Source of the DNA: Bacillota bacterium
GTDB lineage: Bacteria; Bacillota; Desulfitobacteriia; Desulfitobacteriales; JAJXUE01
Length of the DNA stretch: 64,000 nucleotides
Assembly (NCBI GenBank): GCA_021783135.1
Contig: JAJXUE010000003.1
Location: 62,001-126,000, forward strand
Direction of reading: 5' to 3'
The notes under the pieces were generated by a model that saw nothing but the letters and a program-made list of their open reading frames with translations, was not told the origin of the DNA and ran no database searches. Shown here piece by piece: positions 31,390-43,830 of the stretch (positions are counted from its first letter, which is position 1; each line of letters starts with the position of its first letter). A program made the translations under genes and the position numbers.

Positions 31390-32322
31390 TTACTCAGCGA
31401 GACCAGCCGCACCGTTTTCATACGGTTTGATAAGCCCGTATAAAGTGCGTATAGTCGGCAATTCTAAATCTGATTGGGCTGCAAGCCGTAAAGCTGCGCC
31501 TTGAAGACTCTCTACTTCCAAGGTTAGCCCCTTGCGTAGATCCTGGTGCATGGAAGATGTTGCCCCCTGAAGATTTTTCGACACGGTTTCTACATTTGTA
31601 TTTACATAGTCGTCCGGTAGTACTGCGCTGCTTACACGTGCCAACTGCCACATTTCCTGCAAACTACGATAGTAAATATCCTTGGTAGCGGTAACCGCCA
31701 ATATTTTGTCAATTGAGAGCCGACTCGCAGTGGTAACACCGGAAAATGCCGTAATAAACGCGTATTTAGCCCATATATCGACCCAAATATCGTCACTTAA
31801 TTTGCACGCGAACTTAACATTGGACCAAGCTTGTTTCAGTTCAGCGCAAAAATCAACCTGACTGGGCAAGGTTGGGCCAAACGTCATACTATGCACCGCA
31901 CTCGTATGTTGGATATTGCCCTCTGCATCCAAGGTGGACACGATTTGGCATAGACCGCCCAAAACATTTTCCGCACCAACTGCTGAGCGCAACAATTCAT
32001 AGTGTTCTACACCGTTGAGTAAGGGCAATATTTTAGCGCCGGAGTTAGCCAAAGTTATGATCTGCGGCATAGCTGCGTTTAATTGGTAACTTTTGACCGC
32101 CACCAACACCAGCTCGCAGCCCTCTATTGCCTGTGCTTCAACTGCTAGGCGCACCTGAGTTAAGTTTAAGTCTCCAGAGGGGCTTTTAATCACTAGGCCG
32201 TCCTTACGCAGCTTGGCTGCTTTTGGCGCGCGCACTAAAAAGGTTACATCTAATCCTGCCTCCGCTAGTCTACCGCCAAAGTATCCGCCTACAGCGCCGG
32301 CACCAATAACGACTATTCTCAC
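31390..32322 (-). CDS. 2-dehydropantoate 2-reductase family (PanE-like)
   Basis: MRIVVIGAGAVGGYFGGRLAEAG, PLLNGVEHYELL, KYAFITAFSGVTT. Confidence 0.85.
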   Translation of the reverse strand: MRIVVIGAGAVGGYFGGRLAEAGLDVTFLVRAPKAAKLRKDGLVIKSPSGDLNLTQVRLAVEAQAIEGCELVLVAVKSYQLNAAMPQIITLANSGAKILPLLNGVEHYELLRSAVGAENVLGGLCQIVSTLDAEGNIQHTSAVHSMTFGPTLPSQVDFCAELKQAWSNVKFACKLSDDIWVDIWAKYAFITAFSGVTTASRLSIDKILAVTATKDIYYRSLQEMWQLARVSSAVLPDDYVNTNVETVSKNLQGATSSMHQDLRKGLTLEVESLQGAALRLAAQSDLELPTIRTLYGLIKPYENGAAGLAE

Positions 32323-32350: not shown

Positions 32351-33343
32351 TCATTGCAGACTTTGCACTGCGCGCGCTGTCCACCCGGAATCCTGCAGCA
32401 GGGCTCGGCCTACACCAATCAAATCAGCTTTCCCTTCTGCCAGTAACTGTTCTGCGGCCTGTGGCTCTGTAATACCGCCGGTGAGGATGACCGGGATAGA
32501 AACGACCTGCTTGATTGCGTGGGTCAACGGCGCAAAATAGCCTTGTCCTTTCAACTCCGGCACCATGTAGCCACAAAAACCACCCGAGATATCAAGAATA
32601 CTCACGCCAACCTTTGCGAACTCTTGCGCGGCAATTATACTGTCTTCGATTGTCGTCCCGCCGGGCATAAAGTCTGACGCACCTAAACGAATAAGTACGG
32701 GGAAATCTTCTCCTACAGCAGCGCGTACCGCTGCAATCACCTCAAGATGGAGGCGGATGCGCTGCTGAATACTGCCGCCGTACTCATCACTACGCTGATT
32801 AGCCAAAGGAGACAAGAATTGATTTAGTAAGTAGCCATGCGCAGAATGAATTTCCACCGCATCGAAACCCGCCTGTTTGGTACGCAGAGCTGCTTTTTGA
32901 AACGCGTCAATAATATCTGCTATTTCCGGGACACTAAGTTCGCGCGGTAAATTACCTTTGCGTGGATTTATTACTGCCGAGGGAGCTACTGGGGTGGTAC
33001 CGATTATGGCTGCATCAGCTGCGCTACCGGCATGATTAATTTGCATCGCAGCCTTAACTCCATTGCGGTGTAATGTGTCAGCCAACCGCCGTAAACCATC
33101 CACTTGACTGTCCGTGGCGACTGATAGCTGTTGGTTGCTTGCTTTTCCTTCCGGCGCAATAAAGCTATGCTCAATAATCACCAAGCCAAGATCACCACCT
33201 GCAGATTTTTCAGCGTAATAATCCAGTAACGCTTGGCTCACGCTGCCATCCGGCTCAGCCTTAGCACTAGCCATAGGCGGCATTACCAAACGGTTGGTGA
33301 GCTCTAAAGCTCCTGCCTGTAGTGGTTTAAGCAAATTTGCCAT
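32351..33343 (-). CDS. NADH:flavin oxidoreductase (Old Yellow Enzyme family)
   Basis: LTNRLVMPPMASAKA, QINHAG, EIHSAHGYLLNQFLSPLANQRSDEYGGS. Confidence 0.92.
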   Translation of the reverse strand: MANLLKPLQAGALELTNRLVMPPMASAKAEPDGSVSQALLDYYAEKSAGGDLGLVIIEHSFIAPEGKASNQQLSVATDSQVDGLRRLADTLHRNGVKAAMQINHAGSAADAAIIGTTPVAPSAVINPRKGNLPRELSVPEIADIIDAFQKAALRTKQAGFDAVEIHSAHGYLLNQFLSPLANQRSDEYGGSIQQRIRLHLEVIAAVRAAVGEDFPVLIRLGASDFMPGGTTIEDSIIAAQEFAKVGVSILDISGGFCGYMVPELKGQGYFAPLTHAIKQVVSIPVILTGGITEPQAAEQLLAEGKADLIGVGRALLQDSGWTARAVQSLQ

Positions 33344-33389: not shown

Positions 33390-34097
33390 TTATCTATTTA
33401 AGTGCGTAACTTTATGCATTGCACACTTTTGGTGTTGAGGACAAAAATCGCAGTGAGTTTTACCCCTTAGCTCCGGTAAATTACGTCCCAACCCTATCAC
33501 CATACTGACAGATTTACGCGGCATAATCAAGTTAGACTCACTTAGTTGCATGCCAATTGCCTCCGGTTGCAATAACTTGAAAATAACCCGCTGCTCGCGG
33601 AGATCTGGCCAGTAGGAATGACCCGGACCCATTGGAAAAGTTGTCATTAGACCGTCTGAATTGTACGTTTTTTTGAGGCTGTCGCAAAACCTGGGACTGC
33701 TAAGTGCGATATACGCTGAACCGGCGGAATCAAGGGCGAATGCATCTGACATCCGCCCGGCAGCTTGATATGCTGCTACCTGTGTTTCCAACTCGGGTCC
33801 TAAAGTGATAGCTGCCACGATTAGTTTGTCCGCAGTGCCCGCAGCCTGGGTCAACAGCTTGCTGGTAAACTTCTCTCCCCCGCTCACATATATAGCTTGT
33901 CCATCAACCTTAAGGACATCCACTGCCAGCCAGACAACCTTGGGTTGTATCAAAGCAGCTGCTTCTGCGATAATTCGCTGATTTAGTTCCAGTATCCGTG
34001 GGTGGGGAGGTCTTGCGGTAAAGTTTGATCCTTGGGCTAAAAATATCTCTTCGAGGGTAAGTTTGGGCAAAGTTAATTCGAGAACTTTAGCTTTCAC
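33390..34097 (-). CDS. Vitamin B12-dependent methionine synthase activation-domain-like protein
   Basis: MGPGHSYWPDLREQ, IMPRKSVSMVIGLG, C-terminal CDFCPQHQKC. Confidence 0.75.
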   Translation of the reverse strand: MKAKVLELTLPKLTLEEIFLAQGSNFTARPPHPRILELNQRIIAEAAALIQPKVVWLAVDVLKVDGQAIYVSGGEKFTSKLLTQAAGTADKLIVAAITLGPELETQVAAYQAAGRMSDAFALDSAGSAYIALSSPRFCDSLKKTYNSDGLMTTFPMGPGHSYWPDLREQRVIFKLLQPEAIGMQLSESNLIMPRKSVSMVIGLGRNLPELRGKTHCDFCPQHQKCAMHKVTHLNR

Positions 34098-34143
34098 GCT
34101 TTACGTCAGCACCTTATTCTTCCATTTGGTAACAAGCACGCAT

Positions 34144-34782
34144 TTAGGCGTAGATTTCTTTACACAGTCTAACACCGGCAGCCGCATCCTTGGCATAATA
34201 ATCGGCCCCGACAAAGTCACGGACATCCTCATTACAGGGCGCCCCGCCAATAATGACTTTAACTTGCTCCCTTAAACCCGACTTCTCTAACGCCTGAATA
34301 ATAAGTTTTATCTGCGGAAAAGTAAAGTTCAGCAAGGTACTAAGCCCAAGCGCTTTAGCCCCTGTTTCCTGCAGTGATTGCACAAAGGTTTCTGCCGCAA
34401 CATCTACCCCTAAATCAACTACATTAAATCCGGTTCCTTTGAGCATTGTTATCACAATATTTTTACCGATATCATGAAGGTCGTCCTTAACCGTGCCGAT
34501 AACAACAGTGCCTTGCGAAGGTGCACTTGTGTCATCATTTTTTACCAGCAGCGGTTCGAGCAGTGCCATTACATCTTTCATGATCTCGCCCGACATGATC
34601 AATTCACTCAAAAAATACTCGTTATCTTCAAATAATTTCCCTATTCTTGCCATTCCGGCGTTGCACTCCAGCACGATCGAGAGCGGGTCGGTGCCTTTAG
34701 CCAATTCTTGTTGCACCAGTTCTTTCACCTTATCTTCTTCTAGCTCAACTAAAGCGTCAGATATCGCGGATAATTCACTCAT
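34144..34782 (-). CDS. Corrinoid (B12-binding) protein, MtaC/MttC-like
   Basis: GTVKDDLHDIGKNIV (DxHxxG), helical cap domain, GLSTLLNFT. Confidence 0.92.
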   Translation of the reverse strand: MSELSAISDALVELEEDKVKELVQQELAKGTDPLSIVLECNAGMARIGKLFEDNEYFLSELIMSGEIMKDVMALLEPLLVKNDDTSAPSQGTVVIGTVKDDLHDIGKNIVITMLKGTGFNVVDLGVDVAAETFVQSLQETGAKALGLSTLLNFTFPQIKLIIQALEKSGLREQVKVIIGGAPCNEDVRDFVGADYYAKDAAAGVRLCKEIYA

Positions 34783-34815
34783 GCTAATTCAGCCTCCTCG
34801 TGTAATTTCTTAAGC

Positions 34816-36180
34816 TTACATAATCCATTGCCAAATCCAAGTATGTCCTAAGTTCTCCAGCAGTTCCCACGGGCGCCTAATTAAGCTCTCATCCCCCAAA
34901 ACCCCGCCTAGCTCTGCCAATTTACTTTCCCAGGGAGTCACGACTTTTTTGAGATCTTGTGGGTTTAGCAGTTGGGGTGGTGCCGGTCTCGGCACCGGCT
35001 TGATACTTAGGTCATAGACGCCAAATTCAACAATCGCGTCCAGCATAGCCCGGTAGTTCTCAGGTTTCGTATTATAGGGTATATTACATCCGCCGTTAAT
35101 GATAAATCCTCCGCCTTGGCCCACTGTGTTACAGAGCAGTTTTACCCGTTCTCGCACTTCCTGGGCATTGCCCAAGATAAGCAGCGAGTCAGGCATGCCG
35201 CCGGCTAGGCATTGATGATGCCCAATTGCTTCCTTGGCTTTGAAGATATCGCCTTGCACATCAATGTCACACAGAATTGTCCCTTTGGGCAACTCCAGGA
35301 GATGATGCCAATGGGCACCCCAATCACCCTCAAGATAAGCACGCACCTTGTAACCGGCGTCAATAATGATTTGCAGTGTCTTTTTGAAGGAAGGCCAGTA
35401 AAATTTGTCAAATTGTTTCGGCGACAAAAAAGTCGGCTTATGGGTAGGTACGAAAATTGGATACCGCCGCAGTGGGTCTGCCGTCGACAAGGCAAAACTC
35501 ACCATTTCGTCAACTAAAACATCACACGCTGCCAGCACGTTGTCCGGTTGCCGGTAAATATCCAGCAATACTCCTTTCAGCCCGCGCATGGCGTCTGACA
35601 AGGCATCGAACGGAGCCAAGAATGCTCCTGTCATAGGTTGCGGCATCCCACAGGCCTGCTCCAAAGTTTGCGAACGGTTGCGCATAATTTGCGACATCAT
35701 GACGTGGGCCATCCCACCCTTAAGAAAAGCCATGTTGGCAGCCGGGGAACCATTATGAGCTGCCGCGCCCAGCACCCGGGGGATGAAGCGTTCCAGTATA
35801 AATTGTTCCGGGTTGGCAATCAGCAGGTCATACTCGTTCGCCAGCATGTATTCAGCTTCAACAAATTGAACTTGATTCGTCGGTAGTAGTTCCCGGCCCG
35901 GTAGGCGGTATGTTTTCAAAGCCACTGCATCATACAAGGGAGCCCATACCCGGTTATCGCGCAGAACATCTACCTCCGGGAAGTCTCGGATAAAAGTTTT
36001 TTCCGCCTGCAGCCATTTTTCCGGATCATAGATAGTCTCTTGGTTAGTGTTGCCGGAATATATTTCGGCAAAATAGTTACTACCTGAGGCAACCGGCATC
36101 CGATCGGTCGATTCTAAGGCTATCGTGGCCTGATAACGGCCTAGCCTCTCAGCGTAAAGTTTTTCCATCTCATTAGCCAT
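34816..36180 (-). CDS. Uroporphyrinogen decarboxylase-fold methyltransferase family protein (454 aa)
   Basis: URO-D-like C-terminal half (IIDAGYKVRAYLEGDWGAHWHHLLELPKGTILCDIDVQGDIFKAKEAIGHHQCLAGGMP); next to corrinoid protein. Confidence 0.82.
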   Translation of the reverse strand: MANEMEKLYAERLGRYQATIALESTDRMPVASGSNYFAEIYSGNTNQETIYDPEKWLQAEKTFIRDFPEVDVLRDNRVWAPLYDAVALKTYRLPGRELLPTNQVQFVEAEYMLANEYDLLIANPEQFILERFIPRVLGAAAHNGSPAANMAFLKGGMAHVMMSQIMRNRSQTLEQACGMPQPMTGAFLAPFDALSDAMRGLKGVLLDIYRQPDNVLAACDVLVDEMVSFALSTADPLRRYPIFVPTHKPTFLSPKQFDKFYWPSFKKTLQIIIDAGYKVRAYLEGDWGAHWHHLLELPKGTILCDIDVQGDIFKAKEAIGHHQCLAGGMPDSLLILGNAQEVRERVKLLCNTVGQGGGFIINGGCNIPYNTKPENYRAMLDAIVEFGVYDLSIKPVPRPAPPQLLNPQDLKKVVTPWESKLAELGGVLGDESLIRRPWELLENLGHTWIWQWIM

Positions 36181-36362
36181 GCAAACATCATCTCCTCAAC
36201 CAGAATTAATTTTAACGTTAGGGACGTACTGTAGCTTGTCCAATTGTTGGGCAAAAAAGCAAATGGGCCACGCGCAGAATGTTTTCACCTCCTTAACTGA
36301 AGCCGATTGTCAGGAGCCATTTTACGGATTTCATCCACCCTAAAATTCAACCCTCATAGTGC

Positions 36363-37286
36363 CTAAGTGAGCGAATTGTATAAATTCCGCAATCCGGCCA
36401 AATTTAAGCCGGCAAAGATGCCACTATTGGTACCGAGAATAAATTTTTGGGCTTGTGCCAACTCGCGGATTGATGCCAGCTCGTGGTTTAACGCAATGCT
36501 GTTTACCCCCGCATTAGTATTTTGCATATCCAAGTGTCCCCATAAACATAACCGGTTGCCGACTGTGTTGCGCACATCGGCGACAGTCACACCTGCATTG
36601 CGATCCAGACAATGCAAACCTCCAAAACCAGATGCTACAATGTCCGGCAGTACACTTCGATAATCCCCGTCGCTATGAAAAAAGGCAGGAAGTTTGGCTT
36701 GAGAAATTTGCCGGACTTGACGGGACAGACTAGGGAAAAAAAACTTACGCAGAAAGCGCGGACTAAGCATCAAACCTTGATTATAGGCAATATCATCGGC
36801 TATGATAATCCCACTTACGCCCCGTTCAGCCAAAATCTCACTCAAACGTATATTTAGTTTTTCAATTGAATCTATGAATTCTTGTGCTGCTAAAGGTGAG
36901 TTATATAGTAAGGTGAAAAATTGTTCCAAGCCATACATGCGTAATCCCCATTCAAATGCGCCATCTAGGAGTGCAAAGATGTACAATGAGGTATGTTTGG
37001 TCCAATTGTCGATATCTTGCCATTGGCATTCTTCCACTAAAGGTATCTTTTTATCTAGCGTTGGATAAACCGGTGACAACACATAAATATCGAGATTGAA
37101 CTCTTTGCAAAACGCAAGTCTTTCTTGAAATCCGATTGTATGGCAGTTAAGAGCGGTGCGCACCACTGCATCATCAATACATAATTCTCCCTTTGGTATA
37201 TAGTCGCTCAGCCCAAGCTCAATCGCGCGTGCAACTCTTTCCCTTGGCGAGTCAGTTGTCTGCTGCAATTTTGACCCCCATTTCAA
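36363..37286 (-). CDS. Second URO-D-fold methyltransferase family protein (307 aa)
   Basis: PRERVARAIE..., GVSGIIIADDIAYNQGLMLSPRFLRKFFFPSL, AFFHSDGD..., CLWGHLDMQ. Confidence 0.82.
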   Translation of the reverse strand: MKWGSKLQQTTDSPRERVARAIELGLSDYIPKGELCIDDAVVRTALNCHTIGFQERLAFCKEFNLDIYVLSPVYPTLDKKIPLVEECQWQDIDNWTKHTSLYIFALLDGAFEWGLRMYGLEQFFTLLYNSPLAAQEFIDSIEKLNIRLSEILAERGVSGIIIADDIAYNQGLMLSPRFLRKFFFPSLSRQVRQISQAKLPAFFHSDGDYRSVLPDIVASGFGGLHCLDRNAGVTVADVRNTVGNRLCLWGHLDMQNTNAGVNSIALNHELASIRELAQAQKFILGTNSGIFAGLNLAGLRNLYNSLT

Positions 37287-37349
37287 TAACCTATAAGTGA
37301 CGCATTACTACAAAATTGTAGCGTTTTGTGGCGTTAAATGCAGAAGTGG

Positions 37350-37991
37350 TTAATTATGCGGCCTTTGGTCATTTAAGATAAGTCGACAGATAGCTAGGGC
37401 TTGGGCAACATCTCTGGTGTAATAGTCCACACCTGTATACTCCTTAACCTGCTCATCCACAGGGTATCCCCCCACAATTATCTTGACTTTATCGCGCAAC
37501 CCAACTTCTTGGAACAAATCCACTACTTTTTTAACCGTACCCACACAAAATGAAAGCAAGACACTTATCCCTAAGATTGGTGCGCCGCAGGCATTGACGG
37601 ACTCCACGAATTGTGCCGGCGAAACATCTACGCCTAAATCCAAAACTCGAAAGCCATGCGAACGCAATAGATAAATCGCGATATTTTTTCCGAGGTCATG
37701 AATGTCTCCTTCAATTGTTCCCATCACGATGGGTACTCCACTTTGCTGCACATCTAACGGAATCAATGGCTCTAATATTTGCATTACGCCTTTAAAGATC
37801 TCTTCTGACATCACTAGATCAGCCAAAAAGTAATCGCCCTCACTATAGCTTTTGCCAACAAGTTCTACACCCTGGCGACAAATTTCCACTATATCAAGTG
37901 GAGTATACCCATTTTGTAATAATTCTTTCACTAGCGCCAATGTGGTTTGTTCATCCAAATCAGCCATAGCTGCTAATAACTTCTCCTTCAT
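37350..37991 (-). CDS. Second corrinoid (B12-binding) protein
   Basis: GTIEGDIHDLGKNIA (DxHxxG), ISVLLSFCVGTVKKVVD, IIVGGYPVDEQVKEYTGVDYYTRD. Confidence 0.92.
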   Translation of the reverse strand: MKEKLLAAMADLDEQTTLALVKELLQNGYTPLDIVEICRQGVELVGKSYSEGDYFLADLVMSEEIFKGVMQILEPLIPLDVQQSGVPIVMGTIEGDIHDLGKNIAIYLLRSHGFRVLDLGVDVSPAQFVESVNACGAPILGISVLLSFCVGTVKKVVDLFQEVGLRDKVKIIVGGYPVDEQVKEYTGVDYYTRDVAQALAICRLILNDQRPHN

Positions 37992-38009
37992 AATCTCCCT
38001 CCAGTCATT

Positions 38010-38765
38010 TCAATCTTTCTTGTACCACCCGTCATAACCGGTCAGTTTATATCTATCCCCACGATAGATTGATTTACTCCAACCCACCGTTCTATGCTCA
38101 GGATCATAGATGGTTTGCTCAATTAAAAAAACTGGAGAATTGGGCACAATCCCTAAAATTGACGCTTCTAGTTCAGTAGCCGCCGCAACTTGAAGTACCT
38201 TTTTGGCGCTAACCGGGAGAAAATTACTGTGAGCAGCAACTAAGCCAGGCAAGGTAGGGTCTTGGAGATCAGACTCTAGAATGGGTTTACTTTTGCTGTA
38301 GAGCGTATACTTGGTTTCGTAAGCCAGACGTTCCTCTGCCGCAGATACAACCATACGGGAAAACAGGAATTTTACATTGGCATTACTAACCGCGAACTTT
38401 TCCTGAAGCAATTCATTTAACCTGACTATTTTTGCCTCCAAAAGTGTTGTTTTGGCAAGAATGCCGCTTTGCTGGATATTATGATTAAAATCATTCAGCT
38501 CAAAAACTATGTTATCCAATTTTGGCATCGTTACAAAAGTACCTTTACCCTGCTGCGCATTTACCATGCCGCTTGTCACCAGTTCAGCAATAGCTCGACG
38601 AACTGTCATCCTGCTAATGGCAAAACGCGCGGAAATTTCGGTTTCCGTGGGTATTGCCTCACCCGGCTTAAGCTCCCCTCGCCTGATTTGGCCTTCCAAT
38701 AGCTTCGCTAGTTGGTAATACATTGGTATAACTGAAGTTTTATCGATTAATCTATTATTCATCAC
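38010..38765 (-). CDS. GntR-family regulator, HutC/UTRA type
   Basis: IPTETEISARFAISRMTVRRAIAELVTSGMVNAQQGKGTFV plus UTRA domain. Confidence 0.92.
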   Translation of the reverse strand: MMNNRLIDKTSVIPMYYQLAKLLEGQIRRGELKPGEAIPTETEISARFAISRMTVRRAIAELVTSGMVNAQQGKGTFVTMPKLDNIVFELNDFNHNIQQSGILAKTTLLEAKIVRLNELLQEKFAVSNANVKFLFSRMVVSAAEERLAYETKYTLYSKSKPILESDLQDPTLPGLVAAHSNFLPVSAKKVLQVAAATELEASILGIVPNSPVFLIEQTIYDPEHRTVGWSKSIYRGDRYKLTGYDGWYKKD

Positions 38766-38796
38766 CGTAACAACACCTACAAATAGTAATAAATTG

Positions 38797-40641
38797 TTAT
38801 TTGTTATTAGGAAACACTAACGCATTAACAAATTCTTCCTGGAAATTCTGTGAATTCGACAATTCAATATGCGTGGCTTGCTGAGCGATATTTAGCGCCT
38901 GTTCACGTTCCTGCACCGATAGTAGCGCAAGTATGGCACCGTCGCCCGCCGCATTGCCGATTGCCTGGATCCGTTCCGGTGAAACTTGGGGTAACAAACC
39001 GATGTCTAGCGCGCTCGCTTTATTTATATAGTTGCCAAACGCACCAGCTAAAAGAACTTGGTCAATCTCGTCCGAGCTTATGTTCATCTCATGTAAAAGA
39101 ATTTTGACACCAGCTAAAATAGCACCTTTGGCCAGTTGCAGCTCCCGAATGTCTTTTTGAGTCAAAACGATGTCTTCACCGGACACCGTGGATCTACCCC
39201 AAGCTAACACAAATTCGCGACCGTGCTCCTTTTGCCGCAAACGTGAACGTATTTGTTCCGGCAAGTTGGCTAATTGCTCGGGTTTGTAGACAAGCCGACC
39301 GGAACTATCAATAACATGCGCTTTGAGCAGTGCTGCGACAGCATCAATTAAGCCGGAACCACAGATACCGCGCGGAAGGACATTGCCAATAACCGTTAGC
39401 TGCACATCAGTTTCCAAGCTAACTCCTTCGATTGCCCCTTCAGCTGCGCGCATACCGCACTTAATTTCGGCGCCCTCAAAAGCTGGTCCGGCAGCAGTAG
39501 AGCAAGTTAGCAACTTGTTTTGGCCTGCTAAAATCATTTCACCATTAGTCCCAATATCGATCGCCAGCAAGATGCCCGGTCTACTGAGCATATCTGCTGC
39601 CAATGCGACGCCAACAGTGTCCGAACCAACATACCCGGCAATATTCGGTAGCACTGTCACCTTTCCGGTACTCAACATATTTAGGCCTAAAGTACTCGCG
39701 TCAAGGGTGACTGAGGCACGCACCACCGGGATGAATGGGGCGGGAGCTAGATAAGTCGGGTCGAGCCCTAAAAACAAGTGGCTCATTGTCGTGTTGCCAA
39801 CTACAGTTGCTTGATAAATTTCGTGTGAATGAACATTTGCGCTAACGCATAGTTTGTCGATAATGCCGTTTAAGCCTGCAATTACTTTCTCCTGTAATTG
39901 ACGTCGGCCGTCCGGTTCAATGGCCGCAAAGTTTATCCGCGATATAACATCCGCTCCAAACAGGTTTTGCGGGTTGGTCACAGCAGCATGGCCAATTTGT
40001 AGACCACTGCCCAAGTCAATCAGGTAGGCAACAACGGTGGTTGTCCCAATATCAATCGCAAGACCAAAGCAGCGCAACCGCGTGTCTCCTGCCTCCACTG
40101 CCAATACATCTTCTCCGTCGAGCGTGACTGTAATCCTATACTCAGCCTGACGCAGAATTTTAGGCAAGTTGACCGCAACTGCATGATTGAACCGAACGTT
40201 GGGCAGATCTAAGGCGGCAACCAGACGTTCCCAATCGGGAAGTTGGTCCGTAATACTGGGTGGTTGGAGGATAACAAAAACTTTGTGCACACTGGGTGCG
40301 AGCAAAAAATTCTTTTTCAAGGTGTGAAATTCAGTTTTGCGTTGATGCACATCAACCTGTTCGTGCAAAGTTACAATAGTATCTTTAAACAGTGGTCTTT
40401 GACAGGCTAACACCCAACCGGCAGACAATTCGCTGGGTGTCAAAAACTTTGTTTCAATCTTGGTTGCTGTCATGTCACTTGGTTCGAATAGGAGAGCTTT
40501 GCACTTACCGCAAGTGCCCTTGCCCCCACAAGCACTTTCAACTTTAACTCCGGCAACAATGGCTGCCTGCAGAATAGTTTTGCCTGCCTCTACCAGGACC
40601 TTTTTGTTGGCTGGTAAAAATGTTACGCTAATCAACCGCAA
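38797..40641 (-). CDS. RamA/RACE-like corrinoid activation protein (2Fe-2S + ASKHA, DUF4445)
   Basis: ESACGGKGTCGKCKALL 2Fe-2S motif; FGLAIDIGTTTVVAYLIDL; LLAIDIGTNGEMIL; LAGAFGNYI. Confidence 0.9.
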   Translation of the reverse strand: MRLISVTFLPANKKVLVEAGKTILQAAIVAGVKVESACGGKGTCGKCKALLFEPSDMTATKIETKFLTPSELSAGWVLACQRPLFKDTIVTLHEQVDVHQRKTEFHTLKKNFLLAPSVHKVFVILQPPSITDQLPDWERLVAALDLPNVRFNHAVAVNLPKILRQAEYRITVTLDGEDVLAVEAGDTRLRCFGLAIDIGTTTVVAYLIDLGSGLQIGHAAVTNPQNLFGADVISRINFAAIEPDGRRQLQEKVIAGLNGIIDKLCVSANVHSHEIYQATVVGNTTMSHLFLGLDPTYLAPAPFIPVVRASVTLDASTLGLNMLSTGKVTVLPNIAGYVGSDTVGVALAADMLSRPGILLAIDIGTNGEMILAGQNKLLTCSTAAGPAFEGAEIKCGMRAAEGAIEGVSLETDVQLTVIGNVLPRGICGSGLIDAVAALLKAHVIDSSGRLVYKPEQLANLPEQIRSRLRQKEHGREFVLAWGRSTVSGEDIVLTQKDIRELQLAKGAILAGVKILLHEMNISSDEIDQVLLAGAFGNYINKASALDIGLLPQVSPERIQAIGNAAGDGAILALLSVQEREQALNIAQQATHIELSNSQNFQEEFVNALVFPNNK

Positions 40642-40681
40642 AACTCCTTATCCTCGCAAATTTGGCAGAAGACAAACCTAT

Positions 40682-41479
40682 TTAGTCAACCAAACTATCG
40701 TTACGAAATGCTTTTAAAAAATTCCTGCTGAAGCGATCATTGCCCAGCAATAAATTATTAGTGGTAACAGAGGTCATTATTTTGGCGTCAAGGGGGTCAA
40801 GTATCGCGGCATCCATGCCTTGCGCCATGCAGATTGTCAGAAAGTGACGGTTAATCACCTTACGTTTAGGCATGTCATAAGAGATATTACTTAAGCCGGA
40901 TACAGTTTTAACCTTGAACAATCGTTTAATTTCACTCAGACACTGAAAAAACATAACTGCATTGGTATGGCTTACAGCTAAAGGTAACACCAACGGGTCA
41001 ATGTACAGCTTATTTAAGTCATAATTTTTCTGGACTAAAATATTTACTAATTGTTCTGCCAATTGTATTCTTTGCTCTGCAGTTTTAGGAATACCGTTAT
41101 CATCCAGAGTCAGAGCAATTAGCGGACATTGGTATTCCAGCGCTAAGGGCAGTACTGCTTCCAGTCTCTTTTTTTCTAATGATACAGAATTTAGCATGAC
41201 CTTACTCTTGTCGCCGACATAACTGTCCAGTCCTTGTTTGAGCACAGCCGCGTCCGTGCTATCAAGACACAATGGGGTGTCCACGGCTGCTTGTACGGTA
41301 CGTACAAGCCATGTCATGTCCGCTAATTCTTCGCCTTGAGCTGTGTTTAAATCCAGGTAATCCGCGCCAGCTTGTGTCTGATTTACGGCAAGTCCCTTTA
41401 CAGCTTCAACATCCTTGGCATTGAATACCTGCCTGACACTTGGAATTGCACTATTGAGTTTTTCACCGATGATTAACAA
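40682..41479 (-). CDS. Methyltetrahydrofolate:corrinoid methyltransferase-like (pterin-binding, AcsE/MtvA/MtrH-type)
   Basis: MLIIGEKLNSAIPSV, GADYLDLNTAQG, VSGLSNISYDMPKRKVINRHFL. Confidence 0.85.
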   Translation of the reverse strand: MLIIGEKLNSAIPSVRQVFNAKDVEAVKGLAVNQTQAGADYLDLNTAQGEELADMTWLVRTVQAAVDTPLCLDSTDAAVLKQGLDSYVGDKSKVMLNSVSLEKKRLEAVLPLALEYQCPLIALTLDDNGIPKTAEQRIQLAEQLVNILVQKNYDLNKLYIDPLVLPLAVSHTNAVMFFQCLSEIKRLFKVKTVSGLSNISYDMPKRKVINRHFLTICMAQGMDAAILDPLDAKIMTSVTTNNLLLGNDRFSRNFLKAFRNDSLVD

Positions 41480-41527
41480 TTTCCAGGCCTCCTTTTATTA
41501 ACTTATCACTACAGTTATAATTTTAAA

Positions 41528-41546
41528 GGTATAGTTGTATAGACAA
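41528..41546. promoter_or_regulatory. Putative GntR/HutC operator, copy 1
   Basis: ggtatagttgtatagacaa; contains GTATAGAC (HutC-type GTnTAnAC). Confidence 0.65.
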
Positions 41547-41577
41547 GTAAGACTAAAAAATAACACCAACCTCGCAT

Positions 41578-41596
41578 GGTATAGTTGTATAGACAA
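41578..41596. promoter_or_regulatory. Putative GntR/HutC operator, copy 2 (identical 19-mer, 50 bp away)
   Basis: ggtatagttgtatagacaa exact repeat. Confidence 0.65.
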
Positions 41597-41608
41597 ATTA
41601 TTGTTTTT

Positions 41609-41637
41609 ATATTAACAATTTTCTGATTAATAGTCAA
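41609..41637 (-). promoter_or_regulatory. Putative promoter of the corrinoid methyltransferase operon
   Basis: Minus strand TTGACT-N17-TAATAT. Confidence 0.6.
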
Positions 41638-41752: not shown

Positions 41753-42634
41753 CTAGCTTTTAAGCTCCTCTAAGAACACTTCCATGGCATGTGACCCAAA
41801 TGGTTCCTTGTGCCGTAAAATTATAAACTTACGGTGTAAATAAACCTTCTTGCTATTAATAGGGCGAGACAACATATCCCCGGCATTAAGTTCACGTTGC
41901 ACGATTAAACGCGACACAACAGCAATTCCCAGGCCGTTGCTTACAGCTTCCTTGACCCCTTCATTGCTGCTAAAAACATAGGCACGTTTCACCCTCAGCC
42001 CCAGTTGCTTAATCAGGGTATTACTGAATGCCCGTGTGCCTGATCCTGGCTCGCGCATAATCCAAACACAATCCTGTAAATCTTGCACGGTTATTTTAGG
42101 GATTTTGGCCAAAGCATGTCCTTGAGGCATAATCAAAATCATTTCATCGTCCATAAATTCTTCGCACGTTAAACCACTGGTATCCACTTGTCCTTCGACA
42201 ACACCTACATCCAAATGATGGGCGCGTAAATTCTGGAAAATTTCTTCAGTATTGGCTATAGTGACTACGATATCTAAGTTAGGATATTTAGCAGTAGTTT
42301 GAGCCAAAACTTTGGGGAGTATGTACTCGCCAATCGTAAAGCTTGCGCCAATTTTTAAGGTACCGCTTACTACATTGCGTATGCGATTAATATCTTCCAC
42401 GGCTAAGTTATACAAGCGCAGAAGATCTTGAGCATAACGGTACATAATTTCGCCGGATGGGGTTAATTCTACGTGTTTAGAGGAACGGCTGATCAACCTG
42501 GTGCCAAGTTCGTTTTCTAAGTTGCGAATTTGGGAACTCACGCCAGGTTGCGAAAGGTATAATTCATCTGCGGCCCGCGAAAAACTTTTTTCTTCGGCTA
42601 CGGTGAGGAATATTTTTAAGGGGTCAAGCAACAT
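41753..42634 (-). CDS. LysR-family transcriptional regulator (selenium-metabolism/YeiE-like)
   Basis: FLTVAEEKSFSRAADELYLSQPGVSSQIRNLENELGTRL. Confidence 0.9.
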   Translation of the reverse strand: MLLDPLKIFLTVAEEKSFSRAADELYLSQPGVSSQIRNLENELGTRLISRSSKHVELTPSGEIMYRYAQDLLRLYNLAVEDINRIRNVVSGTLKIGASFTIGEYILPKVLAQTTAKYPNLDIVVTIANTEEIFQNLRAHHLDVGVVEGQVDTSGLTCEEFMDDEMILIMPQGHALAKIPKITVQDLQDCVWIMREPGSGTRAFSNTLIKQLGLRVKRAYVFSSNEGVKEAVSNGLGIAVVSRLIVQRELNAGDMLSRPINSKKVYLHRKFIILRHKEPFGSHAMEVFLEELKS

Positions 42635-42786: not shown

Positions 42787-43830
42787 ATGGTAGAAACTAA
42801 TATTAAAAAACCACTATTCATGTCTAATTTATGGCAGTTAGTTCCAGGTATATTCTTTGTGTTTGTACTAGCGCTCGTTGCTAACTGGTTAGGTAATAAA
42901 TATGCGTTAATCGGGGGGGCTGTTTTCGGCATAATAATCGGTATTTTAATCAACAACACGGTGGGTAAACCCAGCCTGACCGTAAAAGGAGTAGCATTTA
43001 CGGGTAAAAAAATCTTGCAGCTAGCGATAATTGTGTTAGGGGCTGGTCTTAGTCTCACTCAGGTGTGGCATACTGGGCTAAGTTCACTTTACGTAATGGT
43101 TTTCACCTTATCCACAGCATTTCTTGCCGCATTCGGCTTTGGCAAGTTAATGCGTATTCCACTGAAGCTTACCACCCTAATCGGCGTCGGTACAGCTATT
43201 TGCGGCGGGTCAGCCATCGCCGCGGTATCCCCCATTGTCGAAGCGGAAGATATGGAAATTGCATATGCTATTTCGACGATATTTCTCTTCAATGTAATTG
43301 CGGTACTGATATTTCCGCCGTTAGGACATCTAATGGGATTTTCGAGCAAAGCCTTCGGGCTGTGGGCGGGAACAGCTATCAATGATACCTCTTCCGTGGT
43401 CGCGGCTGGCTACGCGTATAGCAATACTGCCGGTGCCTATGCTACGATCGTAAAGTTAACCCGCACTACAATGATCATTCCTGTTTCTTTGGTGCTCACA
43501 GCTATTATGGCTCGACATAACAAAATAAAGTTCCAAGCAGAAGAAGCTGCCGTGAACTTTAGTATAGTAAAGATCTTTCCTTGGTTTATTTTATGGTTTC
43601 TAGTTGCTTCTCTTATGAACACTTTAGGATTATTTAGCAAGGCAATGCTGCCGGACATCAACACTGTGGGTAAATTCCTCATTATAATGGCCCTAACCGC
43701 AATCGGCTTGGGTTCGAACTTTAAACAACTGGCCAAAACCGGGATAAAACCGTTATTGTTGGGTTTAATTGTTTGGTTTGTGGTAGCAGCGGTTAGTATT
43801 GCTGTCCAGTTTAGCATGGGGCAAATATAG
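42787..43830 (+). CDS. YeiH/UPF0324 family membrane protein (putative sulfate exporter family)
   Basis: LAIIVLGAGLSL, GVGTAICGGSAIAAVSPIVEAEDMEIAYAISTIFLFN; divergent LysR. Confidence 0.88.
   Translation: MVETNIKKPLFMSNLWQLVPGIFFVFVLALVANWLGNKYALIGGAVFGIIIGILINNTVGKPSLTVKGVAFTGKKILQLAIIVLGAGLSLTQVWHTGLSSLYVMVFTLSTAFLAAFGFGKLMRIPLKLTTLIGVGTAICGGSAIAAVSPIVEAEDMEIAYAISTIFLFNVIAVLIFPPLGHLMGFSSKAFGLWAGTAINDTSSVVAAGYAYSNTAGAYATIVKLTRTTMIIPVSLVLTAIMARHNKIKFQAEEAAVNFSIVKIFPWFILWFLVASLMNTLGLFSKAMLPDINTVGKFLIIMALTAIGLGSNFKQLAKTGIKPLLLGLIVWFVVAAVSIAVQFSMGQI

Follow-up and report, generated by a model that had tools for sequence, protein, structure and literature searches.

A putative MtvB-type operon for corrinoid-dependent demethylation, with a GntR regulator and a GntR-linked corrinoid protein

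Introduction

Methyltransferase systems are numerous in acetogens and sulfate reducers. Acetobacterium dehalogenans has 26 putative ones, and the regulatory system of its cdm genes was stated as not identified (PMC13222342). The 64,000-nucleotide stretch of bacterial DNA analysed here (the window) holds a methyl-transfer operon with two URO-D-fold proteins (UROD1 and UROD2) and two corrinoid proteins (CP1 and CP2). The sequence-only reading had proposed two branches for an unknown methyl donor. The comparison of relatives brought out a previously unnamed small demethylase partner and a regulator-linked corrinoid protein. We consider it probable that the operon encodes a single-branch MtvB-type corrinoid-dependent demethylase with its own GntR regulator and CP2.

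Gene content of the operon

The methyl-transfer genes listed in the sequence-only reading form a real minus-strand run at the coordinates given in Table 1, with support from Pfam and NCBIfam, and the domains agree with its assignment to corrinoid-dependent methyl transfer. There is one methyl-THF-type acceptor enzyme (MT2; top PDB match 4o0q, E 4e-58) and one activator, as had been proposed. The activator carries RACo domains (291 and 193 bits), but the name RamA-like did not hold, as the protein scores 471 bits as RACo/AcsV-like and 147 bits as RamA-like. Both corrinoid proteins contain DxHxxG. The absence of MtaB, MttB and MtmB homologues was borne out when the ten operon proteins were scanned against Pfam and NCBIfam.

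The MetH activation-like protein is barely above the Met_synt_B12 cut-off (28 vs 25 bits) and matches PDB 1j6r (E 7e-4); its gene is also found in the relatives' loci L038-L040, L046-L048 and L086. The OYE and PanE-like genes are present on the same strand as reported, but they lie outside the system conserved in relatives. The same gene set was found again in other genera, a recurrence far beyond chance. A CODH/ACS gene is present in the host genome. No MFS transporter directly adjoins the operon, unlike in relatives, and a search of the host genome for the relatives' transporter, run without a positive control, gave no match at 1e-10. A plasmid origin was rejected, the sole match being distant (25% identity).

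Table 1. Features of the operon and its promoter region (window positions).
Feature	Position	Strand	Basis or remark
Predicted operon sigma-A promoter, TTGACT-N17-TAATAT	41609..41637	-	Consensus match only
Putative GntR operator 1, TTGTCTATACAA	41585..41596	-	12 nt after the -10 box
Putative GntR operator 2, TTGTCTATACAA	41535..41546	-	50 bp from operator 1
MT2, methyl-corrinoid:tetrahydrofolate methyltransferase-like	40682..41479	-	Pterin_bind; PRK07535 312 bits, above cut-off
RACo/RACE ATP-dependent corrinoid reductive activase	38797..40641	-	RACo linker, middle and C-terminal domains; Fer2
GntR regulator carrying a UTRA ligand domain	38010..38765	-	Pfam; partner of CP2
CP2, GntR-paired corrinoid protein with Tyr49 as cap; proposed sensor	37350..37991	-	B12-binding_2 and B12-binding
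UROD2, MtaA-like URO-D-fold protein	36363..37286	-	URO-D 51 bits
UROD1, predicted substrate methyltransferase (MT1), MtvB/CdmB-type URO-D	34816..36180	-	URO-D 84 bits
Tail, fused C-terminal small subunit (UROD1 residues 406-454)	34819..34965	-	Separate ~57-aa gene in many relatives
CP1, putative catalytic corrinoid partner of UROD1, cap residue Phe51	34144..34782	-	B12-binding_2 and B12-binding
MetH activation-domain-like protein, possible auxiliary reactivation	33390..34097	-	Met_synt_B12 28 bits
OYE-family flavin reductase, co-directional, outside conserved system	32351..33343	-	Pfam; comparison of relatives' loci
PanE/ApbA-like reductase, co-directional, outside conserved system	31390..32322	-	Pfam; comparison of relatives' loci

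Family and likely substrate of UROD1

Structure prediction and phylogeny, both suggested earlier for this protein, were carried out. The UROD1 model has the URO-D fold (pLDDT 95). In the tree, built with Moorella homologues, UROD1 falls in the same URO-D clade as the vanillate O-demethylases of Moorella, which are assigned to the MtvB type by their locus tags and are only about 35% identical to UROD1. By sequence, the closest solved structure is CdmB (PDB 9rui, E 8e-38), which is the outgroup of the tree on a long branch. CdmB is a URO-D MT1 with proven activity; although related to O-demethylases, it takes chloromethane and not methoxyaromatics (PMC13222342).

An origin of the two URO-D proteins in heme biosynthesis was ruled out by the HemE profile TIGR01464, which gave 22.4 bits for UROD1 (cut-off 303) and no match for UROD2. 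Another URO-D gene of the host genome scores 469 bits and is presumably the true HemE. Both proteins also stay below the cut-off of the MtaA/CmuA family TIGR01463 (36 and 45 vs 235 bits). At the zinc-site position UROD2 has HxD and UROD1 has ExD/N, and neither has His-x-Cys...Cys.

UROD1 has its place in the MtvB clade, and its cluster also encodes MT2, RACo and a matching DxHxxG corrinoid protein. It is most likely an MtvB-type URO-D methyltransferase acting on methoxylated aromatics. The earlier choice of a URO-D-fold enzyme as substrate methyltransferase is thus supported, and calling the system uncharacterised was too pessimistic; the donor itself is still only predicted, and because UROD1 has about 35% identity to MtvB-type proteins and is related to CdmB, its substrate could differ. 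Desulfotomaculum thermobenzoicum uses methoxylated benzoates according to a title cited in PMC4585845, and the D. thermobenzoicus genome has one strong UROD1-type gene, 73% identical to UROD1.

A small partner of UROD1

In many relatives, the last ~45 residues of UROD1 have their counterpart in a separate protein of ~57 aa, whose gene comes immediately after that of the methyltransferase. This holds for both Moorella mtv clusters, where the gene order is MT2-UROD1-tail-CP. Among 107 UROD1-like ORFs, the tail was fused in 41 and separate in 36. Tail-bearing proteins form one group in the tree (SH-aLRT 91), with a fused clade (99) and a split clade (98). When 399 genomes were scanned blindly with the tail only, all 30 readable matches lay directly after UROD1 or were fused to it. 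No family in Pfam or NCBIfam covers the tail.

We rejected a random extension or annotation artefact, as the tail is a conserved gene elsewhere. Recoding was also rejected for relatives in which an in-frame stop precedes the tail: TAA, TAG and TGA occur there in turn as ordinary ends of adjacent genes, and the small gene usually has its own start.

The best reading of these comparisons is that the tail is a small subunit, which would be fused to UROD1 here. The accounts of the Mtv system consulted here do not mention the tail, and our literature search found no report of a small protein in O-demethylase operons. The Mtv vanillate system was published as three-component, so the tail may be dispensable in vitro. 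A small companion, encoded between the mtvB-like and mtvC-like genes, might be a fourth component of what is classically a three-component demethylase.

Pairing of CP2 with the GntR regulator

A corrinoid protein is encoded directly downstream of the GntR gene in 49 of 52 cases, and most GntR homologues genome-wide adjoin one. Distance correlations, drawn from related and hence not independent genomes, were 0.94 for GntR-CP2 and 0.85 for CP1-UROD1, against 0.32 for CP2-UROD1 and 0.25 for GntR-UROD1. The position aligned with the cap Phe of MetH is Tyr in 64 of 65 CP2-type proteins and Phe in 56 of 57 catalytic corrinoid proteins. In Desulfosporosinus, GntR-CP2 lies upstream of the catalytic genes, separated by a gap of roughly at least 250 bp with motif copies inside. 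GntR and CP2 also stay together in many loci showing no UROD2 gene.

Judged by neighbourhood and cap residue, CP2 is tied to GntR and not to a second demethylase. It is probably a dedicated corrinoid partner of the regulator, possibly with a sensory role; all B12-binding residues are retained, so CP2 could still carry methyl groups. The literature search on such a pair returned one paper, which loosely places MttB-family genes of E. limosum near cobalamin-binding proteins and GntR regulators. We speculate, with less than even confidence, that CP2 is the first member of a family of sensory corrinoid proteins in which the Tyr-capped protein, methylated when methyl donor is available, would then free the GntR repressor from DNA, a methyl-corrinoid switch in many anaerobes with different methyltransferases, and that MtvB-type demethylases also possess a small subunit missed so far. 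Since the regulator nearly always has its own corrinoid protein, a diagnostic residue and a recognisable operator, methyl-donor sensing is directly testable. The proposed sensor pair and the small companion bear on the anaerobic use of lignin-derived methoxyaromatics, and perhaps of chloromethane.

Features of UROD2

The UROD2 fold is MtaA-like. Its site is of the carboxylate type (E34, D164, D165, H204 and D206) without a Cys ligand pair, and the third ligand position is not conserved. The first nine residues are disordered in the model, and translation may start at an internal TTG at 37268. UROD2 correlates with RACo, GntR and CP2 (r about 0.7; 0.68 with CP2) and not with UROD1 (0.28). It is probably an auxiliary MtaA-like methyltransferase of this part of the operon, perhaps acting on CP2.

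Promoter and putative operators

The predicted promoter precedes MT2; promoter-like matches in the region did not outnumber those in shuffled sequence. Perfect copies of TTGTCTATACAA occur exactly twice in the 2.71-Mb genome, both within the operon promoter, and this region has a 19-mer repeat beyond chance expectation. Among relatives, whose genomes are not independent, the motif is enriched upstream of GntR, MT2 and UROD1 genes, and the strict form was seen at only 23 of 50 GntR loci. The GntR HTH and UTRA domains, together with this recurring inverted-repeat putative operator at promoters, place the regulator in the GntR/HutC-UTRA group.

Proposed function and alternatives

Very probably, the operon enables an acetogen-like bacterium to take methyl groups from an outside compound. 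The donor is most likely a methoxylated aromatic; UROD1 would bind it and move its methyl group to Co(I) of CP1, aided by the ~45-residue helical subunit. MT2 would pass it from CH3-Co(III)-CP1 to tetrahydrofolate and so feed the Wood-Ljungdahl pathway. Oxidised corrinoid would be re-reduced by RACo, perhaps assisted by the MetH-activation-like protein. GntR would repress the operon at the two putative operators just past the promoter; CP2 probably signals methyl-group or corrinoid status, and repression would be lifted when the methyl donor is present. The reading is built on the gene content, the place of UROD1 in the tail-bearing clade, the tail-UROD1 and GntR-CP2 linkages and the motif placement, and from these we infer every activity, the substrate and the sensing role.

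The two-branch demethylase, with UROD1-CP1 and UROD2-CP2 sharing MT2 and RACo, is unlikely. It would account for two proteins of each kind in the window, CP2 adjoining UROD2, and for the MtaA-like fold of UROD2 and its correlation with CP2; but UROD2 correlates just as strongly with RACo and GntR, and the loci without UROD2, the separate Desulfosporosinus set and the Tyr cap all point away from it. CP2 might instead sense corrinoid or redox supply, GntR-CP2 opening the operon only with active B12. Its complete B12 site and the change of the upper-face cap residue to Tyr would suit such a role, which we consider improbable: no link was found between the pair and B12 synthesis genes, and sequence cannot separate it from methyl-donor sensing.

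A dehalogenase or demethylase for haloalkanes (Cdm-like) or another small methyl donor, in place of a methoxyaromatic O-demethylase, also has a rather low probability. The sequence match of UROD1 to CdmB, which takes chloromethane and not methoxyaromatics, and the lack of a His-Cys-Cys zinc site in UROD1 as well speak for it. However, CdmB stops at the core, whereas the tail is common to UROD1 and the Moorella MtvB-type proteins; the MFS transporters flanking relatives fit a solute better than a gas, and the methoxybenzoate use cited by title for D. thermobenzoicum points the same way. A thiol-methylating branch of UROD2 and the MetH-like protein, for methionine or a methyl-thiol or selenol as in Mlp gene clusters, is very improbable. 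UROD2 does resemble MtaA and a MetH-activation-like gene is present, but the thiol-binding His-Cys-Cys site is absent, and thiol or selenol methylation is disfavoured by the missing Cys ligands.

Comparison with known systems

The vanillate O-demethylase of Moorella thermoacetica (MtvA/MtvB/MtvC) likewise combines MT2, URO-D MT1, tail and corrinoid protein. The order A-B-tail-C in a 2,527,564-bp genome, presumably that of Moorella, matches the order of the Mothe_ tags. The tail is a separate gene there and fused in the window, whose operon also encodes GntR-CP2, RACo, UROD2 and the MetH-like protein. The chloromethane methyltransferase Cdm of A. dehalogenans shares a zinc-free URO-D MT1, a corrinoid protein and MT2 (PMC13222342); it differs in the tailless, distantly aligning CdmB and in its halomethane substrates. 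Type 1 mlp gene clusters (PMC10418091) also hold several URO-D proteins, a corrinoid protein and a RACE activator, but their Mlps have His-Cys-Cys sites and an H4folate methylase (MT2) is lacking, so that the window's operon, with MT2 and no Cys ligands, falls outside this type.

Uncharacterised clusters of Desulfofundulus, Desulfoscipio and Acididesulfobacillus (L046, L047 and L086) have all eight components, as in the window, in another gene order. L046 and L047 encode a fused UROD1 that is 71-73% identical to that of the window, with an adjoining MFS transporter, unlike in the window; in L086 the tail is a separate gene.

Operon content and host genome

The minus-strand run described in the sequence-only reading was confirmed: MT2, RACo, GntR, CP2, UROD2, UROD1, CP1, MetH-activation-like, OYE and PanE-like genes. 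The activator, called RamA-like there, is instead RACo/AcsV-like (471 vs 147 bits). The operon is real. Its most interesting parts, the probable small subunit and the GntR-corrinoid pair, were absent from that description. The host genome (2.71 Mb, 67 contigs, completeness 96.7%) contains a CODH/ACS gene, so methyl groups on tetrahydrofolate have a Wood-Ljungdahl outlet.

Coordinates of the operon features and related loci
Feature	Position	Description
MT2	window 40682-41479	methyl-corrinoid:tetrahydrofolate methyltransferase-like
RACo	window 38797-40641	corrinoid reductive activase
GntR	window 38010-38765	GntR/UTRA regulator
CP2	window 37350-37991	corrinoid protein
Inverted repeat	window 37308-37321	CP2-UROD2 gap; perfect, CTACAATTTTGTAG, dissimilar to GntR motif
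UROD2	window 36363-37286	second URO-D-fold protein
UROD1	window 34816-36180	probable substrate methyltransferase
UROD1 tail	residues 406-454	helices 417-424, 431-451 (structure model)
CP1	window 34144-34782	probable catalytic corrinoid protein
MetH-like	window 33390-34097	MetH-activation-like protein
LysR gene, divergent from gene for 347-aa membrane-like protein	window 42787-43830 and 41753-42634	just upstream of operon
L044, second cluster	G000:C15:1-16000	same genome; three MtaA-like URO-D genes, RACo (36%), corrinoid protein
Broken second UROD1 copy	L029:11909-13284	two ORFs, 198 + 253 aa
Decayed UROD1 (L043)	G031:C1:1734426-1734605	Acididesulfobacillus; window-type, 59 residues, 78% identical
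Moorella methyltransferase island (L163-L164)	G109:C1:458000-496000	UROD1 with fused tail (two) or split tail (one), two relatives lacking the tail, GntR-CP2 pair
DUF1638 genes	L162:5529-6254; L088:13324-14037	

Relatives gave no recurring association between the LysR/membrane-like pair and the operon. The L044 cluster is another methyl-transfer system, possibly of the mlp type. DUF1638 proteins recur next to the methyltransferase clusters of relatives.

UROD1 and its proposed small subunit

UROD1 matched CdmB, a crystallised URO-D methyltransferase I, with an E value of 8e-38; its family profile recovered CdmB at 3e-73, with MtaA and HemE next and weak. The structure model (pLDDT 95) has a predicted URO-D/MtaA fold. 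UROD1 lacks the thiol-zinc site, because E284-x-D/N replaces the His-x-Cys of MtaA. PMC13222342 likewise reports CdmB and the Moorella O-demethylase to be free of zinc.

Scanning named genomes yielded 80 loci. The tree of 102 proteins, drawn without OdmB, VdmB, MtoB or mec sequences, placed UROD1 in one clade with Desulfoscipio, Desulfofundulus, Sporomusa, Thermovorax and several Desulfobacterota; homologues from Desulfosporosinus, Syntrophaceticus and Moorella fall in the sister clade. The broken copy in L029 reflects a frameshift or an assembly error.

The UROD1 tail carries the motif PWxxKxxExGxxxGDExxIxxxWExLxxxAYxxIWxW. It is a gene of its own (~45-65 codons), immediately 3′ of the methyltransferase gene, in Desulfosporosinus, Moorella, Syntrophaceticus and others. 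Among 107 UROD1-like ORFs, the tail was fused in 41 and a separate adjoining gene in 36, a lower bound since the overlap rule alone missed at least two more cases (L109, L105). ORFs without it fall mostly outside the tail-bearing clade, and the Planctomycetes fusion appears to be a second, independent event. A blind tail-only search found it in 37 of 399 genomes of the phylum, with UROD1 fused or directly upstream in all 30 loci read. The tail matched no Pfam or NCBIfam model. Such constant adjacency and repeated fusion to a single enzyme make a UROD1 subunit the best explanation for this short protein.

A Moorella genome (G117; 2,527,564 bp) has two clusters ordered MT2, UROD1, small gene, corrinoid protein. 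This order agrees with the Mothe_ locus tags that PMC13391211 gives for the two mtv systems, provided that the printed tag 12020 stands for 13020 and that some gene names were interchanged. The skipped tag number falls exactly at the place of the small gene (c03180, c13010). From tag order, we infer that these clusters are the two mtv systems.

Two probable modules

A corrinoid protein lies directly downstream of 49 of the 52 GntR genes in the loci, typically a few tens of bases away; across 14 genomes, about 25 of 30 GntR homologues adjoin one, some in other systems. The GntR-linked proteins form clades separate from the clade with nearly all corrinoid proteins following UROD1-tail.

Two modules are more probable than two methyltransferase/corrinoid branches: over 31 loci, protein distances correlated at 0.94 for GntR-CP2, 0.85 for UROD1-CP1 and 0.25-0.45 across the pairs, although such mirror correlations do not prove physical contact. 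At the 13 loci with UROD2, GntR, CP2, RACo, MT2 and MetH-like correlated at 0.85-0.97, with UROD1-CP1 apart; the UROD1-tail-CP1 cassette therefore looks exchangeable. The decayed Acididesulfobacillus UROD1, beside an intact CP1-like gene (73% identical to CP1), suggests cassette replacement, in agreement with this. UROD2 correlated at 0.68-0.78 with RACo, GntR, CP2 and MetH-like, and at 0.28 with UROD1. The role of UROD2 is the least secure part of the reading; as a best guess, it may be an auxiliary methyltransferase belonging with RACo, GntR and CP2.

CP2 retains the B12-binding residues, but its Tyr49 replaces Phe51 of CP1 and aligns with a Phe of MetH (1bmt). This MetH residue, Phe708, packs above cobalamin's methyl group. 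Phe is likewise found at this position in the solved carriers 4jgi, 1y80, 7xcn and 3ezx. Tyr occupies this cap position in 64 of 65 GntR-adjacent corrinoid proteins, the lone Phe protein (L049) being CP1-type by tree placement; Phe occupies it in 56 of 57 UROD1-tail-linked ones.

Proposed mechanism and methyl donor

The methyl group would pass from the donor through UROD1 with its tail to CP1, MT2 and CH3-THF, with cobalt kept reduced by RACo and perhaps also by the MetH-like protein. GntR would repress the operon, and CP2 would mediate relief of repression.

Methoxylated aromatics are favoured as probable donors because UROD1 is kin to the Mtv proteins, MFS transporters adjoin UROD1 in relatives, and D. 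thermobenzoicum is reported to grow on methoxylated benzoates, going by a paper title cited in PMC4585845. The D. thermobenzoicus genome has one strong UROD1-type gene; the sequenced strain may differ from the phenotype strain. The donor may instead be a chloromethane-type compound.

Putative operator and promoter

The putative GntR operator TTGTCTATACAA has two perfect copies in the whole genome, both in this operon's promoter. They are spaced 50 bp and lie within a 19-bp repeat that chance would not be expected to yield. Of the two, the first is 12 nt past the -10 box of a predicted promoter (TTGACT-N17-TAATAT). In 50 GntR-bearing loci, upstream intergenic DNA (47 kb) held 37 occurrences of the motif vs 20 in the other 872 kb, counts inflated by kinship among genomes; the reversed motif gave 1 match and loci without GntR gave 3. 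Under a strict rule, only 23 of the 50 loci carried it. At Desulfosporosinus loci, GntR-CP2 precedes the MT2-UROD1-tail-CP1 genes; a single motif copy sits ~27 nt 5′ of GntR, and two more occupy the gap between the two gene groups.
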